From Opitutales bacterium (GTDB lineage Bacteria; Verrucomicrobiota; Verrucomicrobiia; Opitutales; JAJFLR01): a stretch of DNA of 32,124 nucleotides. The stretch covers positions 1-32,124 of the forward strand of contig JAJFLR010000089.1 in assembly GCA_021772565.1 (NCBI GenBank), written 5' to 3'. Within the stretch, counting starts at the first letter, position 1, and every line of letters starts with the position of its first letter. The notes below the pieces were generated by a model. It had not been told where the DNA came from and searched no databases. It saw nothing but the letters and a program-made list of their open reading frames with translations. Shown here piece by piece: positions 1,148 through 18,517 of this stretch. Both the position numbers and the translations under genes were made by a program.

Positions 1148-2437
1148 ATGCGAAAGAATTTCTTGTACTCTACCTTAACTGAAAGAGGATTCATTGAGCA
1201 GATCAGCCACGAGGACGAGCTGCCTATTAAGCTGGATCGCGAGCAGATGACAGTCTATGCCGGGTTCGATCCTACTTCTGACAGTTTACACCTTGGACAC
1301 ATCGTTCCGGTAATGGCTTTAAGTCATTTTCAACAATGCGGACATAAAATTATCGTACTTGTCGGAGGGGCGACAGGAATGGTTGGAGATCCGAGTGGAA
1401 GATCGACTGAGCGTAATTTACTTGGACCGAATGAAGTTCGACGTAATGTTGAAGGATTAAAGACCCAGCTTTCACGGTTCGTTCAATTTGAAGGAGACAA
1501 TCCTGCACTTATAGTGGATAACAACGACTGGATAAGTAAGATGTCTTTTATAGATTGGCTTAGAGAGGTCGGAAAGAATTTTACTATTAGGTATATGCTG
1601 GGGAAAGAATCCGTGCGTAGGCGAATGGAATCAGAAGATAGTTTAAGTTTTACGGAATTTGCCTATATGACAATGCAAGCATTTGATTTCTTGCACCTGT
1701 ATGATCATTTCAATTGTAATCTTCAAATAGGGGGTAATGATCAATGGGGAAACATTACAGCCGGGTTCGATTTGATAAAAAAGGTACACACTGATGCCGA
1801 AGTTTTTGGAATGACTCTTCCTTTAATTAGCACATCGAGTGGGGAGAAATTTGGAAAGTCTGCTGGAAATGCAGTTTGGTTAGACCCGAAAAGAACCACG
1901 CCATTCCAGTTTTTCCAATATTGGCTGCAGACTGATGATCAGGATGTAGAACGTTTTCTCAAATTATTCACCTTTCGATCATTAGCCGATATTACAGAGA
2001 TATGTGAAACACATATTGAAAAAGCGGAGTTGCGAACTGCACAGCGTATTCTTGCTGAAGAAACGACCAAGCTTGTTCACGGAGAGAATGGTCTTCAAAA
2101 GGCATTGCAGACCACGAATGTTCTTTTTGATAAGGGAGATTTAAGAATTCTGACAGAGGATGATCTACTTGCTGCTTTCAAGGATGCTCCTTCCGTTGAC
2201 CTAGAGGTTTCGGGCATAATAGGACGAACAATCGTCAATTTACTCCAATCTTCCGAAATCTGCAAATCGAGAGGCGATAGTCGCCGACGAATATTAGAGG
2301 GAGGTGTCTACTGCAACAATTTACGAATAGAAGATGCCAGCCGGTTATTAAATTCTGATGATTTGCTTTACGGAAAATATCTCGTCATTCGTCTCGGGAA
2401 AAAACACTACACAATTGTCCGCGCCATAGGAGTATAG
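1148..2437 (+). CDS. tyrS: Tyrosyl-tRNA synthetase
   Basis: This cytoplasmic class I aminoacyl-tRNA synthetase charges tRNA-Tyr with tyrosine. At 429 residues it has the normal bacterial length. The HIGH-type motif is HLGH at residues 48-51, after GFDPTSDSL. The KMSKS-type loop is KFGKS at 234-238. The tyrosine and tRNA recognition region includes QIGGNDQWGN. The C-terminal 80 or so residues form an S4-like RNA-binding domain (LLQSSEICKSRGDSRRRI..). The ATG at 1148 fits the family N-terminus; no Shine-Dalgarno sequence is visible before it. The gene is followed after 9 bases by the tRNA-Tyr gene, so enzyme and substrate RNA are probably co-transcribed. Nothing about the gene looks damaged. 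Confidence 0.97.
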   Translation: MRKNFLYSTLTERGFIEQISHEDELPIKLDREQMTVYAGFDPTSDSLHLGHIVPVMALSHFQQCGHKIIVLVGGATGMVGDPSGRSTERNLLGPNEVRRNVEGLKTQLSRFVQFEGDNPALIVDNNDWISKMSFIDWLREVGKNFTIRYMLGKESVRRRMESEDSLSFTEFAYMTMQAFDFLHLYDHFNCNLQIGGNDQWGNITAGFDLIKKVHTDAEVFGMTLPLISTSSGEKFGKSAGNAVWLDPKRTTPFQFFQYWLQTDDQDVERFLKLFTFRSLADITEICETHIEKAELRTAQRILAEETTKLVHGENGLQKALQTTNVLFDKGDLRILTEDDLLAAFKDAPSVDLEVSGIIGRTIVNLLQSSEICKSRGDSRRRILEGGVYCNNLRIEDASRLLNSDDLLYGKYLVIRLGKKHYTIVRAIGV

Positions 2438-2446
2438 GAATTTTAA

Positions 2447-2532
<86 letters not shown>

Positions 2533-2868: not shown

Positions 2869-3817
2869 TTAAATCTCTGCTTTCAGCTTATTATGAAGCG
2901 CCTGTAATTCTTCTTTGGGAAGACTAAGGAGTGCGTCAATTGTTGACTCCTGTTTCCCCAGCGCAATCTGCAAGCCTTTAATTTTGCCAAGTAGTATTCC
3001 TTCATTCTGGCCTTCCAAATGGCCTTTCTTAAACCCTTCATTGAGTCCTTCCTTGAGACCTCTCTCAAGGCCAAATCGTTCTATACTGGTTACATACGGC
3101 ATTTGCTTTTCCTGTTCGAATTGTAATAGTTTATCTTTAAAATTTTCATTAATACTATACGGTAATTTCATCAACCAGTCAATAAGTCTGTAAATTTTAA
3201 TAATTTCTTTTTTTGATAGTCCTTTATCATAAAGTCCGCGAATGAGATGCCATTTTTTATCACTGCGTTTATCGGTGTCATTTCTGGATGCTTGGGTTTC
3301 CAAATGAGCGGCAACGAAAATTTCGATTGGGTTTTTACTGCTTGCAAGGACAGGTAAGTCTTTTTCATAGTCTTTGATTTTGCAAACAGGATATTCCAGA
3401 ATTAGCCGGCAACCTCCGATCTATTTTGAATTTAGAGGGTCTCCAATCCGGAATATCGTCTGTCAAAACGGCAAGACTGGTTACATTGACCCTGAAATGA
3501 TCGCGTGCTCGAGTATGATAATTTAACATTCTCGCCGGAAGCTCCGGGTCTTTTTGATTTTGAATTTCAACGTGCACCAATATCCATTCCTCTTCACCGG
3601 ACAGGAAAAAGACTTTTATTAGCTTATCGACATAGCGTTTACCGGTTTGGCTGTCGCTGGCAATCTTTTGCAACTCCTTGTCGAGGAAGACGAATTTCTT
3701 GCTCCAGTCAATGAGTTCGGCAACTTTTGGAAAACAGAACTGCATGAATGGTTGGAAGTAAAACTCAAGCACTTCCTTCCAAGCGCCGTCAAAATCGATT
3801 CGATTAGTTTCTTTCAT
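2869..3817 (-). pseudogene. Rpn/YhgA-type PD-(D/E)XK nuclease, frameshifted
   Basis: Read in one piece this is a protein of about 315 residues of the Rpn (recombination-promoting nuclease, formerly putative transposase) family. The N-terminal part includes FDGAWKEVLEFYFQPFM, then HVEIQNQKD (the E-x-Q signature of the nuclease core) and ARMLNYHTRARDHF. The C-terminal part is the family's charged tail with short G/E/K-rich repeats (ERGLKEGLNEGFKKGHLEG). The first 150 codons end at 3365 because of a frameshift between about 3418 and 3411. In the other frame GCRLILEYPVCKIKDYEKDLPVL continues to the stop at 2869. A single indel explains the break. Rpn enzymes are DNA endonucleases linked to recombination. 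The gene is probably inactive unless the break is a sequencing error. Confidence 0.8.
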
Positions 3818-3996: not shown

Positions 3997-4215
3997 TCAG
4001 GCAATTTGATATATCGCGGGACGATAATGTGGTTCGGGAATTGGTTTTGAATTCTTTCGTGCACTTTCCAACCATGCTTCTTTTGCAAGGATAACTTCAT
4101 TTAGTGCTTCCTCTGGTGTGTTGCCAAATGCTGAACAAAATTGAATATCCGGCACATCTACAATATAACCGCCGTCCTCTTCGCTATAGAATACATTGAT
4201 ATGATAATCCTTCAT
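3997..4215 (-). CDS. HicB-like antitoxin domain protein (orphan)
   Basis: This 72-residue protein has the HicB N-terminal fold signature: a short strand (INVFYSEEDGGYIVDVPDI), then the hinge (AFGNTPEEALNEVILAKEAWLESA) and the typical end KPIPEPHYRPA. HicB antitoxins neutralise HicA, a small mRNA-cleaving toxin, and often carry a C-terminal DNA-binding domain. That domain is absent here, as in the short HicB-like family. No HicA frame is visible on either side: upstream lies only about 90 bases before a MITE, downstream the Rpn relic. AGGA seven bases before the ATG is one of the few good ribosome binding sites in the window. It could be a solitary antitoxin left after toxin loss or a stand-alone HicB-like regulator. 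Confidence 0.75.
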   Translation of the reverse strand: MKDYHINVFYSEEDGGYIVDVPDIQFCSAFGNTPEEALNEVILAKEAWLESARKNSKPIPEPHYRPAIYQIA

Positions 4216-4640: not shown

Positions 4641-5124
4641 TCATTTCGGCAAAAGCACAAGGACTCGGTTATCAACATTTAGCAATTTATTGCTTCCCAG
4701 CTTTTGATGGAAATTCTGCCAATGGCAGTGCCCAAAGACAAACAGTGTACTTCCTGTTTTCATGAGGCAGTCATTTAGCAACGCATCACCTTTATCGTTA
4801 TTGTGCATACCGGCAGGACCTTGGTGCGCTAACAATATATCGATTTTTCTGCTTAACAATTTTTCAATAACTCCAATAAAATCTACCTGCTCTCTTCTTT
4901 TGGGTCGCTTTGGATTACCAATAATTCCCGACACTCCACCGATTTTTAATCCTTTTATATCGATAATTTCATCGTCTATAACTTTTGCGTTATCTCCAAT
5001 TGAGTTAATTTCAATTTCATCATGATTCCCAATGACACCAATTACTATTTCAAAAAGTTCTGAAAAGCGTCGATATACAGAAGAGACATCGCCGGTTCCA
5101 CCAAGTTTATGATGATCCGGATAA
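4641..5124 (-). pseudogene. Metallophosphoesterase, 5'-truncated
   Basis: The minus-strand frame shows the C-terminal two-thirds of a small calcineurin-like phosphoesterase. In order: FYDYPDHHKLGGTGDVSSVY, then VIGNHDE (metal-binding NHD motif), DILLAHQGPAG (histidine motif), VFGHCHW (GHxH motif), ending NVDNRVLVLLPK. The first metal motif (D-x-H) and the early GD motif are missing. In this frame the recognisable part starts where the neighbouring 250-residue gene ends, and the two sit in different frames with no start codon for the esterase in front. A deletion probably joined the neighbour's 3' end to the middle of this gene. GTG at 4934 could start a 97-residue stub, which would lack NHD and should not be catalytic. 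Confidence 0.7.
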
Positions 5125-5877
5125 TCATAAAAACGAATTGAATGGCTGTGTTGGTGAAAACTTCGGCATGGCAGGTGCTTGAAACTCCGGTTTCATGTTA
5201 TCATAATGAGCATCGGTAATGCCGTGGTCGTAACATCGAGGCGGATTGTAATTGAAGTCCGGTTTTGTTTGAATTACCGGATTGATTAATGGTTGAGCAG
5301 GTGGATATTTCATATAAAGCGGTTTGGCAAATTCACCTAATTCATCAAAGGTGCCATGAATTGGATTAAGTGAATGCGATTTATTAATTTCATCAGCGGA
5401 TAGCATTGGATTAATTAATGGCTGTGCCGGTGGATATTCCATATGAATTTGTTTGGGAAGTTCGTGTAACTTATTAAATGAATTGCCAATGTAACCGTCA
5501 TCAATTCCAGTGTTATACAATGGCTTGTTTAATGGAATATCCAACGGCATTTTTACATTGAGTGGCTCTGGTATATAATTAATTTTTGGATGAAAATCTT
5601 TTACAGGAGGTAATTCAGAAGGAAGTGGAATATCGATAAATTCAAAAGATGATTTATCACTAAAGTTTTTAGTAAGATTATAGTCATGTTTAACGAATAT
5701 ATCCAGTGGCTCCGGTATAATATTAGGAATTGGATTAAAATCATTTACAGGAGGTAATTCAGAAGGAAAGGGAATATCAATAAAATTTTTAGTGAGAGTA
5801 TAGTCGTGTTCAACGAATAAATCCATATCAATCGGATCAATGTTAATTAAGTTTATAAATGATTTTTTGTCTGACAT
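5125..5877 (-). CDS. Proline-rich hypothetical protein with two internal duplications
   Basis: I do not recognise this 250-residue protein. It is rich in Pro, Asn, Asp and aromatics, with no signal peptide or membrane segment, so probably extended or disordered. Two duplications stand out. FVEHDYTLTKNF..SELPPVNDF..IIPEPLDI (21-60) recurs at 61-107 with few changes. F-x-x-L-x-E..YPPAQPLINP occurs at 134-157 and 177-200. AAAGGAA lies before the ATG, a better ribosome site than most here. The last few codons overlap DNA that reads as metallophosphoesterase in another frame, so the native C-terminus may have been replaced by a deletion junction. It lies 239 bases after the five-gene envelope block on the same strand and may be functionally tied to it, but co-transcription is not shown. 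Confidence 0.6.
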   Translation of the reverse strand: MSDKKSFINLINIDPIDMDLFVEHDYTLTKNFIDIPFPSELPPVNDFNPIPNIIPEPLDIFVKHDYNLTKNFSDKSSFEFIDIPLPSELPPVKDFHPKINYIPEPLNVKMPLDIPLNKPLYNTGIDDGYIGNSFNKLHELPKQIHMEYPPAQPLINPMLSADEINKSHSLNPIHGTFDELGEFAKPLYMKYPPAQPLINPVIQTKPDFNYNPPRCYDHGITDAHYDNMKPEFQAPAMPKFSPTQPFNSFL

Positions 5878-6116: not shown

Positions 6117-7214
6117 CTAACCGTTGTTTCCCATTGTAATGGTAAAAAGCCGAGATCGATTTCCCTCACTACCGGGAATTTGCATAACAACACCATTGGC
6201 CGATTTACCAATATGAACATTAGGTTGTAAACTATCTCCTTCCTGATTAAATAATCTTACTAACCGCGATAGAACATCTTTATGAAAAAAAAGGTGTCCA
6301 GTACCGCGGGTTGGTTTAATTGCCGGGCCTTCCCCCTCTATTGCATAGGCTTCTTTAATTTCTTCTGCTGAAACGATTTTACCGAATTTTTCATACCGGT
6401 CGTTGCTATTACGATAAATAAATGCCGGCTCCCAGCCATTTGCTCCCTGCTCCCAGGATATACGCAAGTTAGAAGGAAGATCTCCATTGAATGAACGCAC
6501 TTTACTCGACGAAGAATCAACAGTGATTTGCTCAACGATCTGAATTGATGTTGGGTTGACCTTTTTTAATTCCGGTAATTTTTCCGGGTTTGAATCTTTT
6601 TTATCCGGCAACTCCTTTGGAAGTTTAACAATTTCCTCGATGGAACTATAGTTAAAATTAAATAAAAAATAAATGCTGACTCCAATAATAAACATAACGG
6701 CAATGCCTGGCTTAATGAATTTACTAATTCCCGGGCGTTTTTTTTCGACAGAATTTCCCATTTCGGAATTTGGAATTAATTTTACAGCATGGCAATATTC
6801 ACGAATTACCACGCTTAGTGCCGAAACATAGAACAAGGCCATCGGACCATAAAGAGAGAATATTGATTCTGCATTACCGGAAAAATTCGGCGCTAGATTT
6901 TTTACCTCAGTGGCTAGAAATCCCAAACCGGTAAAGAGCATTAAACTAATAAATGCACTATTGAGTTTCCCTGTTTCATGTTCTACTATCCTTGCCCGAC
7001 TACAATACCCATGATGTATTAAAGAAAGTCCCAGTACGCAAAGCGCTATGAATAGATTATCCGCAGCAGCTGTTATGAATCCCATAACCAGGGATGCCGC
7101 CTGAATAAACATTTGCTTGGTTATCTCAGGCAATATTTCTACTGGAAGATACTGCCATGATAATATAAATAGCATTCCTGTTCCGGCAATTAATAGTATT
7201 TTTGATAATTTCAT
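6117..7214 (-). CDS. Polytopic membrane protein with C-terminal soluble domain, unknown
   Basis: I do not recognise this 365-residue protein. About five hydrophobic segments lie at residues 5-20, 38-67, 86-101, 119-138 and 168-187. A Lys/Pro/Asp-rich linker (LPKELPDKKDSNPEKLPELKK, about 198-218) follows, then a soluble domain of about 145 residues beginning at PTSIQIVEQI and ending MGNNG. The linker and domain suggest an inner-membrane platform presenting a domain on one side. It is the last gene of a tightly spaced minus-strand run (19 bases after the previous gene), so it is presumably co-expressed with the lipoprotein-like, secreted and anchored proteins upstream. No catalytic motif is visible, and resemblance to energising membrane subunits could not be supported. 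Confidence 0.7.
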   Translation of the reverse strand: MKLSKILLIAGTGMLFILSWQYLPVEILPEITKQMFIQAASLVMGFITAAADNLFIALCVLGLSLIHHGYCSRARIVEHETGKLNSAFISLMLFTGLGFLATEVKNLAPNFSGNAESIFSLYGPMALFYVSALSVVIREYCHAVKLIPNSEMGNSVEKKRPGISKFIKPGIAVMFIIGVSIYFLFNFNYSSIEEIVKLPKELPDKKDSNPEKLPELKKVNPTSIQIVEQITVDSSSSKVRSFNGDLPSNLRISWEQGANGWEPAFIYRNSNDRYEKFGKIVSAEEIKEAYAIEGEGPAIKPTRGTGHLFFHKDVLSRLVRLFNQEGDSLQPNVHIGKSANGVVMQIPGSEGNRSRLFTITMGNNG

Positions 7215-7233
7215 AAATAATTTAGTATTAGAG

Positions 7234-7605
7234 TTATTGTTTAATTAAGAGGCGAATCGGGATGTTTGATTGAATGGGTCCTTCAATCTCAATAATGACA
7301 GCCTCAATTGGGTTAATTTTATCCTTAGATAAAAGTATAGCTCTATGGGTAGGCTTCGGTGATTTTGTACCGGTTGATTCCGACTTGCTGGGAGTATTTT
7401 TTTCCTGATTCTGGATATCAATAATTTTCACTTTTGGATTTTTATCGCTATTATCCGAATCCAATTGTTGTGATGAATCAGCTTCTCCACTAATCCCCAT
7501 TAAAGCTATTCCAGCCACAGCCATTAGGGTTGCCACATCAAAGCCACCGATCGCCCAGGATTGATCTAATCCGTCAGAGGAATTTGGTTTTTTTTCGTTT
7601 TTCAT
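7234..7605 (-). CDS. Small membrane-anchored protein, unknown
   Basis: This 123-residue protein begins with a short charged and polar stretch, then one hydrophobic segment (FDVATLMAVAGIALMGISG, about 22-40). A polar Ser/Asp/Lys-rich linker follows, and a short C-terminal domain of strand-like pattern (RAILLSKDKINPIEAVIIEI..IPIRLLIKQ). That predicts one membrane pass and a tail domain. It lies 8 bases after the 162-residue gene and 19 before the polytopic protein, in the same apparent operon. AGGA sits 13 bases before the ATG, too far for a strong site. The family is unknown to me. Confidence 0.65.
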   Translation of the reverse strand: MKNEKKPNSSDGLDQSWAIGGFDVATLMAVAGIALMGISGEADSSQQLDSDNSDKNPKVKIIDIQNQEKNTPSKSESTGTKSPKPTHRAILLSKDKINPIEAVIIEIEGPIQSNIPIRLLIKQ

Positions 7606-7613
7606 TATTATAA

Positions 7614-8102
7614 TTATTCCTGTTTTTCTTCGATTTTGCCATCCAATACCCGTTGTAGTGCACTTTCAACCTCTTCACTTTTTATTGGTTTTTTTTGCTG
7701 GTAATCACTCTCATTGACCTGTCCTTGCATTACCCTCTCCAAAGCAGTTTTTCCTACACTCGGACCTTTCTGCTCCGTAGATGTGCCCTCCTCGATTTTC
7801 TCGTACCTAATTATTTTTTCCAAAGCTGATTTTTTATTATCATCTTTCTCTTCAGTATTAGCCTCCTTAGAAGAATTCACTTTTGATGAAATACTTTTGT
7901 CTTCAACAGCAGCATCAGAATTTTCTTTGACAGATTTTTTTTCAGCTGTTTGATTTTTAGATTTAGTCAATCTCATAAAAATCGGCTTAACTATTTTCGG
8001 TACTGAAAAATCTTCCCAAGTGTTTTTTACACTACCTGACTTTAAAAATGAAACCAACGTGATAGCAGTAAATGTTATTATAATAATTGAAACGGTTCTC
8101 AT
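7614..8102 (-). CDS. Anchored charged protein with three ALxRV-type repeats, unknown
   Basis: This 162-residue protein starts with one N-terminal membrane segment (SIIIITFTAITLVSFL, about 5-20), followed by a highly charged Lys/Glu/Ser region. The C-terminal half carries three spaced copies of a short motif: SALEKIIRYEKIEE (92-105), TALERVMQGQVNES (119-132) and SALQRVLDGKIEE (147-159), spaced about 27-28 residues apart. Such evenly spaced short helical motifs on a flexible tether often act as docking peptides for a partner; that role is inference. It sits third in the five-gene run, 17 bases after the secreted protein gene and 8 before the next. The composition is otherwise low-complexity and no family is recognised. 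Confidence 0.65.
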   Translation of the reverse strand: MRTVSIIIITFTAITLVSFLKSGSVKNTWEDFSVPKIVKPIFMRLTKSKNQTAEKKSVKENSDAAVEDKSISSKVNSSKEANTEEKDDNKKSALEKIIRYEKIEEGTSTEQKGPSVGKTALERVMQGQVNESDYQQKKPIKSEEVESALQRVLDGKIEEKQE

Positions 8103-8119
8103 GATTAGTAATTTTTGAA

Positions 8120-8884
8120 TTAATATAGCTCTATTTCCACATCTGAGTCCTTCAGTGAATTTTTATTATCCAACTCATTCTGTCTGTTGCGAATTATCTC
8201 GGGTAATGCGCCCATCATTGCGCCTGAATTCTTTGCTTTAAACAATTCAAGATTGTAATTTTTCTCCAACTCTAACGATTGAGTTATCGCTAAATTAATC
8301 ATATCATCAGATATCACATTATTAGACTGTGCAAGTGATATGCTGACCTCCGGAAATCTCTCCATCAGTTTTTTTCTAGCATCATCAAGTTTTTTATTTT
8401 GTTTGTCCAAACTTCTATAATTTGCGCTCTGCTCGCTGTCTGTAGTTGACTCAATAATCACATTATAATTATCAACCGATTGACCAATTGCCGGCGTTTT
8501 TTTCCCCTTACTTTTCATTTCGTATAATCGAGTTCTTCTGGCAGAATTTTTGATTTTATTATCCTCAATTCTTTTCCCTTTATCATTATAATATTTTGTG
8601 CCAAAACCATTTTCCATGGCATTTTCATATTCAGTCGCGGCGGCTTCGAGCTCATTGGCTTCAATAAATTTATCTATGTTTGAGACGTATCCTTTACTTT
8701 TTTCGATCTCCGGATTACTTTTGTAATTTCTCAATTCACTTTGACTAAACGATAAATCTCGCTTAATTTCCCTGAATGTCACTACGACTCCGTCATTTGA
8801 ATCTATATTGCCAACGGCACTTTTTGATGAAATCAAAAATATACATATTAACATTTTAGTGCTGATTAATTTATTACTTTTCAT
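8120..8884 (-). CDS. Secreted hypothetical protein
   Basis: This 254-residue protein has an N-terminal signal peptide pattern (positively charged start, hydrophobic LICIFLISSKSAVG, likely cut near residue 25). The mature part is charged and probably mostly helical, with helix-rich stretches such as IDKFIEANELEAAATEYENAM and KLDDARKKLMERF; some may be coiled coil. I see no enzymatic motif and recognise no family. It is second in the run, 21 bases after the lipoprotein-like gene and 17 before the anchored repeat protein. A Sec-exported periplasmic or outer-membrane-associated component of the block is the simplest reading. Confidence 0.65.
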   Translation of the reverse strand: MKSNKLISTKMLICIFLISSKSAVGNIDSNDGVVVTFREIKRDLSFSQSELRNYKSNPEIEKSKGYVSNIDKFIEANELEAAATEYENAMENGFGTKYYNDKGKRIEDNKIKNSARRTRLYEMKSKGKKTPAIGQSVDNYNVIIESTTDSEQSANYRSLDKQNKKLDDARKKLMERFPEVSISLAQSNNVISDDMINLAITQSLELEKNYNLELFKAKNSGAMMGALPEIIRNRQNELDNKNSLKDSDVEIELY

Positions 8885-8905
8885 AATTATTTATAGTTAT
8901 AATAT

Positions 8906-9754
8906 TTATTTGTTTAACATCTCAATTATTTGTAGAGCTAACGTTTCGCCGCTAATAGCATTTTTTGCGGTTAAAAATGGTATTAAATATATTCCCTGCA
9001 ATTTTAAATCTCTGGCAAGATTCTGTATATCACTGGTGTCCGATATTCCTGTCATTATCCAATTCGCCGCAAAAAAATTAATCAGAATATTTTGTACCCG
9101 ATGTTCAATCTCAAGATCAATTTCTCTACCATCAATTCTTGTTGTGAACAAGATCTCTGAAGGGATTGTAACTTTCTCAGATTCCAATCCTAAACGTTTA
9201 GTAACAATCGTTGCTGTTGTATATTTTTTCGGATTTTTTCCTAGTCTATAGGCCGCAAGCCTCAGAAAAGTAGACTCCTCACTATAAACGATATTGTTAA
9301 GGACTGGGTTCGCAGCACTATAAATATTTATGGAGTGCTCTAAAATAGAGTCATCGTTTAATAATAACCCTATTTTGGATCCCATACCCGATAAAATTGC
9401 TGCGTCCTCTGCGTGTAATTTTGTTGGATCTAAATATTTCAAAACCTGACCTGCTTCATTTAGCAAATCTATATCGAGGCCGTCCAATGCCTCATCTATT
9501 AACTCAATTGCCCTGTTTGCTGTGAGCTTCGTTCTGTCTGGAATGATTATATTAGAATAGCTTTTTTCTAGAATTCTTTTTGGTGGCGGGGTACTACTGA
9601 CAACATTTGTAGGTACAGTATTTTTTGGCATCGGCTTATATTTTGTCTCTACACTATTGAAAAAGCTCTTGCAACCTCCGGATACGATGTTCATAGATAA
9701 AAAAATAACGATTGCCGTTATGCGTATATTTGATTTAATAACATTTAATCTCAT
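8906..9754 (-). CDS. Probable lipoprotein, first gene of the envelope block
   Basis: This 282-residue protein has an N-terminal hydrophobic segment (ITAIVIFLSMNIVSGGC) ending in Cys28. Lipid attachment at that Cys is plausible, but the lipobox is imperfect (Ser at -3). A Pro/Ser/Thr linker (VVSSTPPPKR) follows, then an alpha-helical domain (ANRAIELIDEALDGLDIDLL.., LHAEDAAILSGMGSKIGLLL) that recalls helical-repeat folds, and a C-terminal alpha/beta part. No family is recognised. It is the most upstream gene of the block, preceded by about 515 bases without a gene where the promoter should lie. No Shine-Dalgarno sequence precedes the ATG; the context there is plain A/T. Confidence 0.65.
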   Translation of the reverse strand: MRLNVIKSNIRITAIVIFLSMNIVSGGCKSFFNSVETKYKPMPKNTVPTNVVSSTPPPKRILEKSYSNIIIPDRTKLTANRAIELIDEALDGLDIDLLNEAGQVLKYLDPTKLHAEDAAILSGMGSKIGLLLNDDSILEHSINIYSAANPVLNNIVYSEESTFLRLAAYRLGKNPKKYTTATIVTKRLGLESEKVTIPSEILFTTRIDGREIDLEIEHRVQNILINFFAANWIMTGISDTSDIQNLARDLKLQGIYLIPFLTAKNAISGETLALQIIEMLNK

Positions 9755-10270: not shown

Positions 10271-11155
10271 ATGCCAAAAATTCCCAAATTCTATCGACAA
10301 CGTTTTTTATTGTTATTGCTGGAATGTCTTGGAGGTTACATATCTAAAATGGACTTCCAAAAGCTACTGTTTTTGTCACATAAGGAAGCAGGTTTTTCAT
10401 ACTATGATTTTGTTCCTTATCATTATGGTTGTTATTCCTTTCAAGCACAATCTGATATCGAATTACTGGAATCATTTGGATGGATTGAGCAAAAGCCGAA
10501 ACATATTAAATTACTGGCAACACCGAATGATGCGAAAAATAATAATGAGCGAAATTCAATCAACATATTTAAAAACAAGATTGAGGGATATAAAGGCCGA
10601 AAACTGATACAATATGTTTATGAACGTTATCCATATTATGCTATAAATAGCAAAATAATTTCTGAGGTACTAGATGATTTGGCTGATGTAGATGTTGAAA
10701 GAAGCAAATTAATAGGTAAAAATAAAATCCTTTATACAATTGGTTATGAAGGTCTTTCATTCGAGTCATATGTCAACCGACTTCTTGAACATGGTGTTCA
10801 ATTATTATGTGATGTTCGCAAAAATCCTTTTAGCCGTAAATTTGGTTTTTCAAAAGGTGTGCTTAGTCGCTTATTGCCAAAACTTGGGATTGAATACGTA
10901 CATATTCCTGAATTGGGAATACCATCAGAAATGCGCCAGGATTTAAATTTAGCAGATGATTATATAAAACTTTTTGATGTCTATCGGAAAACACTGACGC
11001 AAAATGTGAAAAGTTTTCAATTAATAGAGACATTACTCAATAAACATAAACGTATTGCCCTAACCTGTTTTGAAAAAGAATATCATTTCTGCCACCGTCA
11101 TTGTGTCAGCGATTATTTGCAAGACAGAAGCAATATCAAGATTTGCCATCTATGA
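10271..11155 (+). CDS. DUF488 protein with an N-terminal helical domain
   Basis: The protein has 294 residues. The C-terminal half is a DUF488 domain: it starts ILYTIGYEGLSFESYV, continues LLCDVRKNPFSRKFGFSKG and YVHIPELGIP, and ends in the Cys/His signature TCFEKEYHFCHRHCV. The N-terminal half (QRFLLLLLECLGG..MDFQKLLFLSHKEAGFSYYDFVPYHYGCYS) resembles the SocA/Panacea-like (DUF4065-type) domain found in antitoxin and phage-related proteins; that match is from memory. The function of DUF488 is unknown; it is frequent in defence or mobile contexts. Its stop overlaps the start of the next gene (ATGA), so the two are translationally coupled. Three internal hydrophobic leucines near residue 14 do not make a signal peptide. 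Confidence 0.75.
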   Translation: MPKIPKFYRQRFLLLLLECLGGYISKMDFQKLLFLSHKEAGFSYYDFVPYHYGCYSFQAQSDIELLESFGWIEQKPKHIKLLATPNDAKNNNERNSINIFKNKIEGYKGRKLIQYVYERYPYYAINSKIISEVLDDLADVDVERSKLIGKNKILYTIGYEGLSFESYVNRLLEHGVQLLCDVRKNPFSRKFGFSKGVLSRLLPKLGIEYVHIPELGIPSEMRQDLNLADDYIKLFDVYRKTLTQNVKSFQLIETLLNKHKRIALTCFEKEYHFCHRHCVSDYLQDRSNIKICHL

Positions 11156-11646: not shown

Positions 11647-12417
11647 ATGAAGCACCTACCCTGTCTTCTAGTTAAAGAAATAAGATCACTATTATTTGCA
11701 CCATCTACCTATGCCGCTTCAGCATTGTTTATGATGATAATGGGGATTATTTACTGGCTAATTTTATTGGAATACAGTCAGGAGGCAATTGATAGTTTAC
11801 CCATAATAGATTTCTTTAAAGGTTATTGGTTGCCGGTTTTGATTTTGGTTCCTATGCTGACCATGAGGTGTATTGCTGAGGAACGGCGACAGAAAACTTT
11901 GGAAACGTTATTAACTACTCCGGCCTCTGCGCTTGAAGTGGTTGTGAGTAAATTTTTAGCTGCCTATTTATTATACTGTGGGTTATGGATGCTAACATTA
12001 TGTTACCCAATAATTACTAGTTATATTGTCTACTCAAATTTGGATTTCAACCCTTTTATGGATAGAGGTATATTGTTAGGGGGTTATTTATTTATTGGAT
12101 TGAGTGGTCTACTTTTTGTCAGTATTGGAATTCTTGCCAGCTCACTGACACGTAGCCAACTTGTTGCCGGCATGCTTTGCTTTACTATTTTATTTATAAT
12201 TATTGTTGGTGGGTTTTTGATAGCCCGAACACCGATCTCTCAAAATTCTATAATTCCCATCATCGAATTGCCTATGGAATATGCCCTTCAATCATTCATA
12301 CATCTGGAAGACTTTAGTCGAGGTGTAATAGATACTCGACCGTTTTCATTTTATATAAGCAACACGTTACTTGCATTGGGTGTATCAGTACTTGTAGTAG
12401 AATCAAAAATTCAATGA
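11647..12417 (+). CDS. ABC-2 type transporter permease (GldF-like)
   Basis: This 256-residue integral membrane protein has about six hydrophobic segments. It shows the family's landmarks: an N-terminal KEIRSLLFAPSTYAASALF, the cytoplasmic EERRQKTLETLLTTPASALEVVVSKF signature before the second span, and LASSLTRSQLVAGMLCF in the middle. It would form the channel part of an ABC exporter of the GldFG type, found in gliding Bacteroidota and widely in other phyla without gliding. Its 3' end overlaps the GldG-like start by four bases (ATGA). The ATP-binding subunit that normally precedes it is absent from the window, so it must be encoded elsewhere or lost. Confidence 0.85.
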   Translation: MKHLPCLLVKEIRSLLFAPSTYAASALFMMIMGIIYWLILLEYSQEAIDSLPIIDFFKGYWLPVLILVPMLTMRCIAEERRQKTLETLLTTPASALEVVVSKFLAAYLLYCGLWMLTLCYPIITSYIVYSNLDFNPFMDRGILLGGYLFIGLSGLLFVSIGILASSLTRSQLVAGMLCFTILFIIIVGGFLIARTPISQNSIIPIIELPMEYALQSFIHLEDFSRGVIDTRPFSFYISNTLLALGVSVLVVESKIQ

Positions 12418-13883
12418 ACTTCGACGATTTTAGAACAACAAATTTGATAAAGTGGATTAATCGATCCTTGCAGATTTTATTTGGCGTACTGTTGATAGCC
12501 GGTATAAATTACCTTTGTTTAAAATATTATTTTCGAGAAGATCTAACCCAACGTCACTTATACTCACTATCGCCTGAAACAAAAGCTTATATTAACAAAA
12601 TTGAAAAACCACTGAAAATCATATCGACTATTACTCCTCAAACACCGGGTAGTTTACATAAATACGTTAGTAACTTATTGAAAGAATATGAGTATGAAGG
12701 TAAAGCAGGAAACAGCCAAAAAATTGAGGTTGAATTCGTAGATGTTTATAAAGAGAGAAAAAAAGCGGAACACCTTGCACGCACTTATGGACTTCAACAA
12801 TCTGATATTATTTTGGTAGCAAGTGATGATCGCCAAATAATACTTTTGCCAAGTGATATTATGAAAACTGAGGAAAACGTAACTATGGCATTTAAGGGCG
12901 AGCAGGCATTGACTTCTGCTATTGTGGAACTAACTGCAAAGAGAAAGCAAAGAATTTATTTTCTCGGTGGTCATGGAGAAATGAGAATCGATGATTCAGA
13001 TCCGTTAAGAGGCTTATCTGAGGTAGTTCAACAATTACACTTTAGAAACTTTGATATGGGGGTACTCGATTTATCAGTAGTCGATAAAATTCCAGATGAC
13101 GCTGATTTAATAATTGTTGTATCTCCCCAAGGTTCTATACAACCAAATGAAGTTAGAATTCTTAAAAAATATCTCAATGAACAAGCGGGGCGGTTAATGA
13201 TTTTTTTAGATCCTGGCAAAAATCACGGGTTAGAAGACCTATTTTATGAATGGGGAATACTTGTTGATGATATGCTTGTATTTGATAACGGCGATGATTT
13301 TCAAGAATCGAGTGGCGATTTAATTATCAGACAATATGCAGATCATCCAATTACAGAAACACTAATAAAAAACCAGATTCCTTTGGTCTTTGGATTGTGT
13401 CGTCCGGTTCGAATGAACCCAGGAAGCCCGTTAGATGAAAGATTGCAAACCACACAACTACTCGGTAGCTCTGCTTCCAGTTGGGCAAAACGCAATTATT
13501 TAAACCCAAAAAATATTCAGGAACTCAGCTATAATCCAAAAACTGACTTAAAGGGCCCTATAAGTTTAGCTATGATTGCAGAAAGAAAAATCTCTCCGAG
13601 TCTAGGTATTAATTTTTCAGGTGGGCGTCTACTTGTATTTGGCAATTCAGACTTCATAACTAACCAACGAATTGGTGCTCTCGGTAACTATATGTTATTT
13701 CTTAACACAATTAATTGGAGTCTGGACAAAAATGATTTATTAGCGATACAACCTCGACCAATACATAGAATTCAAATTCCATTGAGTCGTAAAGAAGTCA
13801 TAAATTTGGGATTGGTTTTATTAATATTACCCTGCAGCACTGCAATTGCCGGAGTCATAGTCTATTGGATTCGAAAACAATAA
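12414..13883 (+). CDS. GldG-like ABC-associated protein
   Basis: The 489 residues comprise an N-terminal membrane span (about 19-37), the family's DLTQRHLYSLSPETKAYI segment right after it, a large extracytoplasmic region and a C-terminal span (about 461-485) ending IRKQ. Inside, IYFLGGHGEMRIDD and LMIFLDPGKNHGLEDLF mark the IFT52/GldG-type domain of the uncharacterised ABC auxiliary family. The start overlaps the permease stop, and the DUF4340 gene begins 12 bases after its end, so the three are surely one operon. The cargo is unknown. Complete length, with no sign of damage. Confidence 0.85.
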   Translation: MNFDDFRTTNLIKWINRSLQILFGVLLIAGINYLCLKYYFREDLTQRHLYSLSPETKAYINKIEKPLKIISTITPQTPGSLHKYVSNLLKEYEYEGKAGNSQKIEVEFVDVYKERKKAEHLARTYGLQQSDIILVASDDRQIILLPSDIMKTEENVTMAFKGEQALTSAIVELTAKRKQRIYFLGGHGEMRIDDSDPLRGLSEVVQQLHFRNFDMGVLDLSVVDKIPDDADLIIVVSPQGSIQPNEVRILKKYLNEQAGRLMIFLDPGKNHGLEDLFYEWGILVDDMLVFDNGDDFQESSGDLIIRQYADHPITETLIKNQIPLVFGLCRPVRMNPGSPLDERLQTTQLLGSSASSWAKRNYLNPKNIQELSYNPKTDLKGPISLAMIAERKISPSLGINFSGGRLLVFGNSDFITNQRIGALGNYMLFLNTINWSLDKNDLLAIQPRPIHRIQIPLSRKEVINLGLVLLILPCSTAIAGVIVYWIRKQ

Positions 13884-13895
13884 TGGAAATAATCG

Positions 13896-15761
13896 ATGCG
13901 TTTTAAACTAACTATAATTTTATTACTCCTTAATATCACTTTAATTAGTTTTATCTATTACATTGATAAATCAGCGAATACTGAAAAGTTTTTTACTGAA
14001 GAAGGAAATCTAGTCTTTCAACCCGGAATAGTGGAAAATTGTGATTCTTTGATTATTGAAAATAAACAAGAACAACTTACATGGAAATTAGTAAGAAACA
14101 ATAATGACTGGCAAATTGAAAAACCTGTTGAATGGCCGGCCAATATTTTCGCAGTGAGAAGAATTATTAACCAATTAACTTTTTTGGAAAAAGTTACCGA
14201 GTTCGATGTTGATGACATTAAAAAGTCTGGGCAATCCCTATCAGATTACGGATTATCAGAACCAAATGCTGTGATTAGTCTTATAAATAATAATATTAAA
14301 ACGACTATAAAAATTGGTGAAACTACAGAAATTGGTCGACGTTTGTACGTGTTGTCACCCGATGAATCGAGAATACTCGTGATTAATCGCGATATTCTTG
14401 ATAGCATATCAATAGGACTGGAAGAACTTAAAAGCCAAAAGATTTTTGATATACCTTTATTCGAAATTCAGTCTCTGAATATACAGCTGTATAAACCGGA
14501 CAGTGTAACAGTACAACTTTCCAAAAATGAAAATGGGTGGAGTTTTGAATCACCTATCCAGACGGAAGCTGATACGAGTAGCGTCATTGCCACTATTAAT
14601 AGTTTAACATCACTCAACGTTGATTCATTTATAAAAGCAGATTACGACTTACAAGGGCTTACAAATCCATCAATGAGATTAACTATTCAAGGTGATAATC
14701 GAAAGCTTACAGTAAAATTGGGAAATTTAATTTCCGAAAACAAACGACAAAAAAAGTACTACGGAATGCTGGAAAACAATCCAACTGTGTTTATTTTATC
14801 AGCACAACCATTTGAAGTTTTGAAAGAAGCACAAGTTAACTTGAGAGATAAAACATTCATAAAGTGTAATTGGGATGAATTGACGTCAATTGATATAGAG
14901 GTGTCAGATAAAATGATAACATTACAAAAACTTGAGACTGGTATTTGGAATGTACTGGAGAAAATAGACAAAGGTGAATTAATCGTCTGGGAAGCTGACT
15001 CTAATTTAGTTCAAGGTATTATCAACGCCTTTACCAAGTTGGAGGTGTTAAAATTTATTACTGATGCTCCAGCTGAAAATGATTTAGAAAAATACGGAAT
15101 CAAATCACCTCACAGGAAAATTACCATACATGCTGACAAGGATCTTGAAGTATTAATAGGGGACATGGATTTTAAAAATAAATTGCGCTATGTGAAATTA
15201 AACTCTGAGCCGTATATATACCAAATTAAACCTTTCTTGCTACACATGTTGAAGCTCAATGCTCTACACTATAGACAACGCACGTTAAACGAACAGCCTA
15301 CTTCAGCTAAAGTTCAAAAACTTACCATTAAAGAGTTAAATAAAGGGATAACTATACTTGCACAAGATTTTGATGTCGAATCAGATAATTTAATATCAAC
15401 ATTAAGTGATTTAGATGACAAGAAAAGAAATGCAGTTGTTGAACTGTTGAATTCGATAAAGACTTTTGAAGTTAAAGAATATTTGCGCTATCAGTTTGAC
15501 GAAGAATTTAAGTTGGACAAAAAAACCAATCTTCCATGGAAATACCGATTTGACGCTGTAATATTGCTTCCATCCGGTAATGGAAAAGAAATCGTCAATA
15601 AGACATATTTCTTTACCGACAGAGTGGGTGGAACTACTCAATATGGCGGATCCCCTGATGATGATTTGACTTTTACACTAACGCAAAAATTAATTGATGC
15701 CTTATTTACCGTTACATTTACTCCTGAATCAATAATACCTGATAAAAAGAATAAAGAGTAA
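13896..15761 (+). CDS. DUF4340 domain protein
   Basis: A 621-residue protein with an N-terminal anchor (LTIILLLLNITLISFIYYI) and a periplasmic body made of repeated DUF4340-type modules. Each module has the pattern W-x-(I/F)-x-x-P followed by a helix and then LSDYGL or LEKYGI-type turns: NDWQIEKPVEWPAN / LSDYGLSEPNAVISL near 65-135, GWSFESPIQTEAD / LTNPSMRLTI near 210-265, and WEADSNLVQGI / LEKYGIKSPHRKITI near 365-415. This family regularly follows GldG-like genes and probably assists the same exporter. The ATG at 13896 is 12 bases after GldG. Reading frame and length look normal. Confidence 0.85.
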   Translation: MRFKLTIILLLLNITLISFIYYIDKSANTEKFFTEEGNLVFQPGIVENCDSLIIENKQEQLTWKLVRNNNDWQIEKPVEWPANIFAVRRIINQLTFLEKVTEFDVDDIKKSGQSLSDYGLSEPNAVISLINNNIKTTIKIGETTEIGRRLYVLSPDESRILVINRDILDSISIGLEELKSQKIFDIPLFEIQSLNIQLYKPDSVTVQLSKNENGWSFESPIQTEADTSSVIATINSLTSLNVDSFIKADYDLQGLTNPSMRLTIQGDNRKLTVKLGNLISENKRQKKYYGMLENNPTVFILSAQPFEVLKEAQVNLRDKTFIKCNWDELTSIDIEVSDKMITLQKLETGIWNVLEKIDKGELIVWEADSNLVQGIINAFTKLEVLKFITDAPAENDLEKYGIKSPHRKITIHADKDLEVLIGDMDFKNKLRYVKLNSEPYIYQIKPFLLHMLKLNALHYRQRTLNEQPTSAKVQKLTIKELNKGITILAQDFDVESDNLISTLSDLDDKKRNAVVELLNSIKTFEVKEYLRYQFDEEFKLDKKTNLPWKYRFDAVILLPSGNGKEIVNKTYFFTDRVGGTTQYGGSPDDDLTFTLTQKLIDALFTVTFTPESIIPDKKNKE

Positions 15762-15802
15762 CGTTTAATAATTTCCAATATAGAGTTTAATTGCAGAATT
15801 TA

Positions 15803-18517
15803 ATGGCTCCGGTAAAAATCAGTTGTATTGGGAAAAAATGTTTCAGTGAAGGCTACAAATATTCCTGTTGTCTGATAAATACAATATTAGTTTTTATAGC
15901 ATTCGTACAATTTTATATAATTTTATTAAATGTAATCAAACTGGAGATACCGACTCCAGAGTTTTTAAAAAGCAAAATTGAGCAAAAATTAATTAAACAC
16001 AATCTTGTCGCTAACTGGGAATCAATAAACTTGGATTTAGCAGGAGGCATTCACGTTAGAGATTTGTCTTTATTTTTATCACAATATAATAAAAATTTCG
16101 AAATCGCTCATGCAGACGCAGCATTAGTAAATTTAAATGTTTTCGACTTATTACTGAATAAAATTAATATAAATAAAATCAGTCTAAACAATGCTGAGTT
16201 GTTTGCACCTAACATTAATCCCCTAATTAATAGCAATAATCCATTGGTCAAAAATTTTAATGGGAAGCTGATTAAGAAAAATGGAAATTGGGAACTGCAT
16301 AATTTAATTCTAAATTTTTTTAATTTAAGCCTATTTGCGAACGGACAACTTCCTGAATTGACAGGCGTTGACTCAAATAAACAACTTAATATTTTAGATC
16401 AGTATAAAGCATTTTGTTTTCTAGCCTATAAATATAAATCCCATTTTGAAGCATCTACAAGCCCTCAACTAAAAATTAATTTTCTGAAAAACGAATCCGG
16501 TGAAATAGGTATAGAAGGGGAATTAATTGGAAAAAATTATCAGTTAAATCGCAATCTAACTGCTAAAAATATTCGAGCTAGTTTTATCTCTGATAGATTA
16601 ACAGAAGCATTCCCTATAAGTCTCCAAATTGCAGATATAAATTTTCTAAACATCTATTATTTGAAGGATATAAAATTACAGTTTCCTCTACAGATCAAAA
16701 ATCTGACAAGTATACCCGATAGAATAAAACTAAGTGTTAATCGATCTATTTTGTTTAACCAATCACTAATGTCACTGTATGGTGAAATCGATTTGTCGGA
16801 ATACCCTATTATTAAAAGTCAGACTCATTTTATTCGCAATAAAAAGCCAGTAAACGTAATATCAAATATAGATTCAAAAAATAAAAGCGGTCAAGTTCAG
16901 TACGATGGTGAATTCGACTTAAAATTGATCAATAAAGTTTATGATTTAAACTCTTTTAATTTCATCAACAAATTCAAAATTAAAGGATCCACTAATATTA
17001 AGTTAAGTGTCAACTTTGATAAAAATTTCAAATTTAATAACGCTGAATTTGAGACGACCCTAAATAACCCTAAATATAAAGATATTGAAATTTTAAATCT
17101 CTTTGCTAAAGGGACAGTGAGCAAGACGGATCTATCACTAAACCAGTTAGAATTTGATCATGCTAAATATCATGTTTCCGGTTCATATGCTCAAAACTTC
17201 ATCACTAAGGATTACCGTTTTCTTCTAAGTGGAGATGTTTATCCACACGATTTAAATTCAGTACTCGACGACTGGTGGGATAATATTTGGAATAGAATTG
17301 AATTAAGTGAACCCACGGTAAAAGCCGATATTGATATAAGTGGCCAATGGGGAACTTTAAGAGAATTATTTGTTTATGGATATGCAAAGGGTAACGATTT
17401 TTTGTATAAAAATCTACCGGTAGATTTTTGTAGCACAAAAATTTTTCTCTCGTATAATTTTACCTATATTTACGATTTAGTAGCACAAATGAATGACAAG
17501 TTCTTTAACAGTGATATTCAGTGGTACTATATTGAGAATCAGCCAACTCCGGTAGAAATTCAGTATTCAATATTTTCGCGACTCGATCTTGATGAATTAG
17601 AAATAGTAACAGAAACAGATTTATCTGCAATAAAATCTGATATCATTCCGACAGCTCCTCCAGAATTAAAAATAACCGGCAAGTGGTTAAGTGAAAACAA
17701 TAAAAAAGAATCAACTAACTATAAAATAGAGGCCAGATTGAATGATAAACTCAACTTCTACAATATCCCTATCGACAGGATAAATTTTAATGCTGATATA
17801 AATACCTATCAATCTAAAATTTCCAATTTAAATTTTGATATTCAAAACGGTCATGGAAAAGGAGATATTGTAATCGAAAATAAAAAAAATAATGATATTC
17901 TAAATTTCGATATCAGTCTCAGTAATATGGACTATATGAAAACATTAGAAACTATTAAAAAATTAAATTTGGATGATGATCAAAAAAGTAATGTTATTAC
18001 TGATGTCGATGAACTAAAATCAGATCATGGTAAAATTGATATTAAAATTAAAGCAAAAGGAACTATGGGCGATTTAAAAAGTTTTGTCGGCGAGGGAAAC
18101 ACAGAAATTAAGGGCGCGAATATCTGGTCAGTACAACTCTTTGGTCAGTTATCGCGATTATTAGAGAAAACCTGGGCCAGTTTTACAACTTTACCATTTA
18201 ACAACTCAATAGGAGATTTTAAAATTAGTGATGGGATAATCCATTTCCCGAAATTATCAATTTCCGGCCCAAATGCAGAAATTCAGACTAGTGGATTTTT
18301 GAATTTCACAAATTCAAAACTTGATTTCAAAGTTAAATTATTTCCTATGGAAAAATCCAAACAACCGATGGCATCCATAATCAGCCCAATATTAAAACCA
18401 TTTAGCCATGCTCTTGAATTAAGATTAAAAGGAACTTTGGATGAACCAAATTGGCGCCTATCGATTGACCCAAGAAACCTATTTCAATCAGATAATAATA
18501 AAACCAAAACTGAATAA
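15803..18517 (+). CDS. AsmA-like outer-membrane biogenesis protein
   Basis: A protein of about 904 residues. It has one N-terminal membrane span (TILVFIAFVQFYIILLNVI), then a long beta-rich repeat region typical of AsmA/TamB-type lipid-transfer proteins. It ends in a recognisable AsmA C-terminal region: FGQLSRLLEKTW, FNNSIGDFKISDGIIHFPKL, ISGPNAEIQTSGFLNF and LKGTLDEPNWRLSIDPRNLF. Such proteins bridge inner and outer membrane and move phospholipids, so the host is diderm. I chose ATG 15803 over TTG 15791. It starts 41 bases after DUF4340 and ends 5 bases before nfo, so the run may be transcribed through. Confidence 0.8.
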   Translation: MAPVKISCIGKKCFSEGYKYSCCLINTILVFIAFVQFYIILLNVIKLEIPTPEFLKSKIEQKLIKHNLVANWESINLDLAGGIHVRDLSLFLSQYNKNFEIAHADAALVNLNVFDLLLNKININKISLNNAELFAPNINPLINSNNPLVKNFNGKLIKKNGNWELHNLILNFFNLSLFANGQLPELTGVDSNKQLNILDQYKAFCFLAYKYKSHFEASTSPQLKINFLKNESGEIGIEGELIGKNYQLNRNLTAKNIRASFISDRLTEAFPISLQIADINFLNIYYLKDIKLQFPLQIKNLTSIPDRIKLSVNRSILFNQSLMSLYGEIDLSEYPIIKSQTHFIRNKKPVNVISNIDSKNKSGQVQYDGEFDLKLINKVYDLNSFNFINKFKIKGSTNIKLSVNFDKNFKFNNAEFETTLNNPKYKDIEILNLFAKGTVSKTDLSLNQLEFDHAKYHVSGSYAQNFITKDYRFLLSGDVYPHDLNSVLDDWWDNIWNRIELSEPTVKADIDISGQWGTLRELFVYGYAKGNDFLYKNLPVDFCSTKIFLSYNFTYIYDLVAQMNDKFFNSDIQWYYIENQPTPVEIQYSIFSRLDLDELEIVTETDLSAIKSDIIPTAPPELKITGKWLSENNKKESTNYKIEARLNDKLNFYNIPIDRINFNADINTYQSKISNLNFDIQNGHGKGDIVIENKKNNDILNFDISLSNMDYMKTLETIKKLNLDDDQKSNVITDVDELKSDHGKIDIKIKAKGTMGDLKSFVGEGNTEIKGANIWSVQLFGQLSRLLEKTWASFTTLPFNNSIGDFKISDGIIHFPKLSISGPNAEIQTSGFLNFTNSKLDFKVKLFPMEKSKQPMASIISPILKPFSHALELRLKGTLDEPNWRLSIDPRNLFQSDNNKTKTE

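Follow-up and report, generated by a model that had tools for sequence, protein, structure and literature searches.

PqiABC combines an inner-membrane protein, a periplasm-spanning part, and an outer-membrane lipoprotein in one pathway (PMC10897342), and we propose the same three-part layout for a block of five genes in a member of the Opitutales. The five block proteins differ from PqiABC-type systems in that they have no MCE domain or other Pfam match. The Tol-Pal and ExbB-ExbD-TonB systems (PMC7391070, PMC8928145) are a second comparison: there too, genes for polytopic and single-span inner-membrane proteins are grouped with those for a periplasmic protein and for the lipoprotein Pal, and the ExbD-like part has an acidic residue at its span. 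However, homology between ExbD and the 123-amino-acid (aa) block protein is undetectable, and the block lipoprotein has no OmpA-like domain according to Pfam. Also, TolQ and ExbB have three spans, whereas the polytopic protein of the block has five spans and a probably periplasmic tail.

The block is carried on a 32-kb contig (JAJFLR010000089.1) of a 3.57-Mb assembly that is 95% complete. We refer to the whole stretch that was analyzed (32,124 nucleotides) as the window. The original prediction had described five minus-strand genes at 6117-9754 with gaps of 8–21 bases. When we re-measured them, coordinates, strand, and spacing were all as first described, with gaps of 21, 17, 8, and 19 bases from gene 1 to gene 5 (Table 1). 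Signals typical of lipoproteins, secreted proteins, or membrane proteins are present in every product, and hydropathy and inspection of the sequences recovered every localization signal that had been claimed for the five proteins. We infer that the five genes are transcribed together. The reading that we favor, and to which we give about an even chance, is that they form one accessory operon for a small envelope complex, which would bridge the inner membrane and an outer-membrane lipoprotein and act as a scaffold, sensor, or helper.

Table 1. Features of the window and of the corresponding region in G020, a genome from another family of Opitutales.
Feature	Position	Strand	Length	Description
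Window, block gene 1	8906..9754	-	282 aa	Probable lipoprotein
Window, block gene 2	8120..8884	-	254 aa	Secreted helical protein, probably periplasmic
Window, block gene 3	7614..8102	-	162 aa	N-terminal anchor, charged tail, three repeats
Window, block gene 4	7234..7605	-	123 aa	Single span, short N-terminus; ExbD-like in layout only
Window, block gene 5	6117..7214	-	365 aa	Five-span membrane protein with conserved soluble C-terminal domain, probably periplasmic
Window, tyrosyl-tRNA synthetase gene followed by tRNA-Tyr gene	1148-2532	+		
Window, tRNA-Tyr gene	2447-2532			
Window, Rpn/YhgA-type nuclease-like ORFs	2869-3817	-		
Window, HicB-like antitoxin	3997-4215	-		PF15919, E 4.5e-5
Window, calcineurin-like phosphoesterase remnant	4641-5054	-		PF00149, E 5.5e-4
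Window, proline-rich protein	5125-5877	-	250 aa	Internal repeats IDIPxPSELPPVxDF and YPPAQPLINP; no family match
Window, DUF488-domain protein	10271-11155	+		Pfam E 3e-24; PADLOC PDC-M19A E 2e-101
Window, gene cluster	11647-18517	+		Family matches to ABC-2 membrane, ABC_transp_aux (GldG-like), DUF4340, YhdP-like
G020, block member 1			282 aa	Lipobox AAGC
G020, block member 2			260 aa	Signal-peptide-like start
G020, block member 3			124 aa	One N-terminal span
G020, block member 4			128 aa	Short N-terminus, then one span
G020, block member 5			375 aa	Five spans
G020, upstream	L004:110-1495	+		DUF4116 repeat protein
G020, upstream	L004:1840-5637	-	1265 aa	TPR repeats
G020, downstream	L004:12236-13738	+	500 aa	Papain-like cysteine protease region and membrane span

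Recurrence and distribution of the block

A five-gene block with the same order and orientation, similar sizes, and matching signals is present in G020 on contig JAFIGH010000177.1 (an Opitutales MAG), which was read in its entirety; the G020 block and the block on this contig are one occurrence, not two. When all ORFs of the window were compared with all those of the G020 contig, only the block members matched. The gene neighborhood had been chosen beforehand as a check that could overturn the block, and the block survived it: G020 has the same five-gene order, and the flanks are unrelated. In the G020 block, provided that the ORF for the 375-aa protein begins at TTG, each of the overlaps among the last three genes is 4 bases, which favors co-expression. 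Among the flanking genes in G020 are those for a 1265-aa protein that contains numerous TPR repeats of very similar sequence (with units such as PILQWAAPRAVQSPQCGE) and for a protein whose cysteine protease region resembles PDB 3ois.

As a test of homology, we compared local alignment scores with those from 150 shuffles for all 25 cross-pairs of the two blocks. The highest scores came from the 365/375-aa pair (z 30.7; blastp E 3e-17) and the 282/282-aa pair (z 15.7; blastp E 4e-9). The 254/260-aa pair reached z 9.4 by alignment score only, and blastp alone was not significant for it. The 123/128-aa pair was marginal (z 2.0), and the 162- and 124-aa proteins (z -0.8) correspond in position and anchor only. 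None of the off-diagonal cross-pairs scored above z 1.8. Judged by these alignments, three members of the block (365, 282, and 254 aa) are homologous between the window and G020, and the localization signals match member by member across the two blocks.

These data cut both ways for a complex. In its favor, the order and orientation of the five genes are the same in two families of Opitutales, with flanks that are unrelated; against it, sequence conservation is slight or absent in two of the five members (162 and 123 aa). Alternatively, there might be no complex, and the five envelope proteins might have separate or loosely related tasks and merely be co-transcribed. Proteins that are loosely constrained would be expected to diverge almost past recognition, as the 162- and 123-aa members have. 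However, the order and composition of the block were kept through deep divergence and the flanks were not, and we consider this alternative rather doubtful.

How widespread is the block? With a profile built from the two sequences, 2 of 223 Opitutales genomes were found to encode the 365-aa protein, and no further credible genome turned up in our samples of the class (384 genomes) or the phylum (388 genomes; the two samples overlap), although more diverged relatives may escape detection by a profile of just two sequences. We rejected the third entry within the order (G023), which is a partial match inside an unrelated 529-aa protein, and the third entry in the phylum sample (G623), whose match spans 41 positions and includes a stop. 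Short loci around the weak matches (G023, G033, G061, G063, G623, and others) contained no ORFs that match other block members. The lipoprotein profile identified the same two genomes at E<=0.01, along with a weak 80-position match in G066 that has no block context around it.

The family of the window genome consists, in our search for relatives, of that one genome, and conservation was assessed against a single comparison genome, G020. In the family of G020, one of 17 genomes (G020 itself) has the block, and a match in G198 (E 0.08) is attributable to chance. Two genus-mates of G020 lack the block, including the 254-aa protein, so the block is accessory. A search of contigs returned the G020 contig as the sole find. 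Overall, the block is rare and accessory.

We also considered whether the genes downstream of the G020 block, which encode proteins of 104 and 500 aa, are additional members. We rejected this because the sole relative in the window genome is weak and sits on a different contig. In addition, genomes of the order that lack the block commonly have weak relatives of the 500-aa protease.

Family searches and predicted features of the five proteins

The original prediction considered the five proteins to be unrecognized and asked for profile searches. We ran these, and none of the five was assigned to a known unrelated family. Searches of Pfam, NCBIfam, and PHROGs gave zero credible families for any of the five proteins (E<=1). 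Four of the five had no match in PADLOC (E<=0.1); the 365-aa protein matched CARF_TM (E 0.031), partly over its membrane spans, which we do not consider credible. Searches of PDB sequences with two-sequence profiles gave no credible match to the 365-, 282-, or 123-aa protein; those to the 254-aa protein were confined to PPR and helical-solenoid proteins, of which almost all are designed. In a narrow search of open-access papers, we found no description of such a block. The lack of family matches, together with the recurrence of the block in a distant Opitutales genome, bears out the description of these genes as a unit of unrecognized proteins. The five genes are probably a real but rare and uncharacterized unit, and they may link the inner and outer membranes.

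The 282-aa protein is a probable lipoprotein. Its N-terminal hydrophobic stretch ends at Cys28 in an atypical lipobox (SGGC), and Cys28 aligns with the cysteine of the cleaner AAGC lipobox in the G020 homolog. By simple sorting rules, this lipoprotein is predicted to go to the outer membrane. An AlphaFold model from a two-row alignment was poor (mean pLDDT 48.5); in it, only residues ~76-178 had moderate confidence, and these are predicted to form helical hairpins. Structural matches for this model were to TPR and designed helical repeats with Z 7-8, a range that the tool flags as possibly just a common arrangement and uninformative, and the best Foldseek E was 0.15. The 254-aa protein has a signal-peptide-like hydrophobic N-terminus, and one of its hairpins resembles a PPR unit. 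TPR- and PPR-like helical repeats often bind proteins. The likeness to such proteins lies in the hairpins in the core of the lipoprotein model and in the single PPR-like hairpin of the 254-aa protein; the differences are that none of the five proteins matches a TPR or PPR profile in Pfam and that the structural Z scores are in the uninformative range.

The 162-aa protein has a single hydrophobic span (residues 3-21). The original prediction gave it three evenly spaced, docking-like motifs. The repeats themselves (SALEKI at 92, TALERV at 119, and SALQRV at 147, with spacings of 27 and 28) are real and above chance, as just 1 of 200 shuffles of the tail scored as high. Docking fared less well: we found no comparable repeat in the G020 counterpart, so the repeats cannot be essential to whatever both blocks share. 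With unconserved motifs and no demonstrable homology, this protein is a poor basis for a mechanism.

In the 123-aa protein, a span at 18-36 is followed by a tail of ~85 residues. Both this protein and its G020 counterpart have an acidic residue where the span begins (F-D-V-A-x-L-M and F-E-S-A-x-L-M) and share the layout of ExbD, that is, a single N-terminal span with an acidic residue and then a domain. This layout raises the alternative that the block is a coupling device powered by the proton motive force, like ExbB-ExbD or TolQ-TolR, with the 123-aa protein as the stator, the five-span protein as its channel partner, and the 162-aa protein as a force-transmitting rod. TonB and TolA consist of a span and a charged tail, and so does the 162-aa protein. 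However, the ExbD profile (PF02472) finds nine genes in the window genome and misses the 123-aa gene, and a profile-profile comparison of the two-row profile for this protein with 15 Opitutales ExbD proteins gave a 1% probability. Furthermore, five spans and a periplasmic tail are unlike ExbB or TolQ, and the five-span protein has no ExbB-type Pfam match. We consider such a device very improbable, and the likeness of the 123-aa protein to ExbD is one of layout, not of family membership.

The 365-aa protein has five hydrophobic spans followed by a soluble tail of ~180 residues. This topology comes from simple hydropathy and loop charges, not from a trained predictor. The loop charges place the N-terminus inside and the C-terminus outside, in broad agreement with the G020 homolog, and the C-terminal domain is probably periplasmic. 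In the AlphaFold model (two-row alignment; mean pLDDT 41.5), which is poor, the second span is split into two helices, so the protein may have five or six spans, and the predicted side of the tail depends on this number. The soluble domain is the best conserved part of the protein; stretches conserved between the 365- and 375-aa proteins include GWEPAF, EAYAIE, GPA, and HLxFHKxVLxRL. Foldseek returned only chance matches for this model, and both models are too weak for folds to be named.

A possible complex across the envelope

In the complex that we favor, the five-span protein would be the core in the inner membrane. Its conserved domain, which is predicted to be periplasmic, and the two single-span proteins would gather the secreted helical protein, and this protein would in turn meet the putative helical scaffold of the outer-membrane lipoprotein, so that the two membranes would be bridged. 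As a scaffold, sensor, or helper, the complex might then assist some other process of export or surface assembly. The original prediction proposed a trans-envelope assembly; the predicted topologies fit it, but both structure models are too poor to reveal an interaction.

Across the five genes, Pfam, NCBIfam, and PHROGs identified no ATPase, outer-membrane barrel or channel, or recognizable motor, so the block probably has the role of a scaffold, sensor, or helper and not that of a self-sufficient transporter; it also probably falls short of a complete secretion machine. A bolder reading is that the block encodes an undescribed envelope-spanning machine that is found only in scattered Opitutales, has an inner-membrane core and a lipoprotein of its own, and is unrelated by sequence to known systems for secretion, transport, or energy transduction; we hold this to be somewhat unlikely.

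The envelope biology of Verrucomicrobiota is little studied, and if the proteins form one complex, then it would be an uncharacterized envelope assembly in this phylum. The conserved block is a defined five-gene unit for cloning and testing, and more members could be sought with the conserved domain of the 365-aa protein.

Neighboring genes and a possible role in defense

The DUF488 gene in the window starts ~500 bases from the block on the opposite strand and matches a candidate defense family in PADLOC. Together with the patchy and rare distribution of the block, this would suit a mobile island of accessory genes that serves in conflicts with phages or rival bacteria, in which the block would provide envelope-based defense, exclusion, or immunity. 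However, none of the five block proteins has a credible PADLOC match; no neighbor of the DUF488/PDC-M19A type was recognized beside the G020 block; no relatives were found in the phages, plasmids, and viral contigs that we searched; and the genes recognized beside the block include no integrase or other mobility gene. We judge a role in such conflict to be improbable.

Other neighbors also differ between the two genomes. We did not find the ABC-type genes of the nearby cluster (at 11647-15761) next to the G020 block, and the cluster is therefore probably unrelated to it. The gene for the proline-rich protein lies downstream of the block in the window, after a gap of ~240 bases, and was not seen beside the G020 block.

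In the rest of the window, the putative phosphoesterase remnant covers only profile positions 63-190 of its family, and the HicB-like match is under the curated cut-off, with no adjacent HicA toxin gene recognized. The two successive nuclease-like ORFs resemble a single gene with a frameshift (with weak matches to Rpn and transposase-31), and the gene for tyrosyl-tRNA synthetase is followed directly by the tRNA-Tyr gene.
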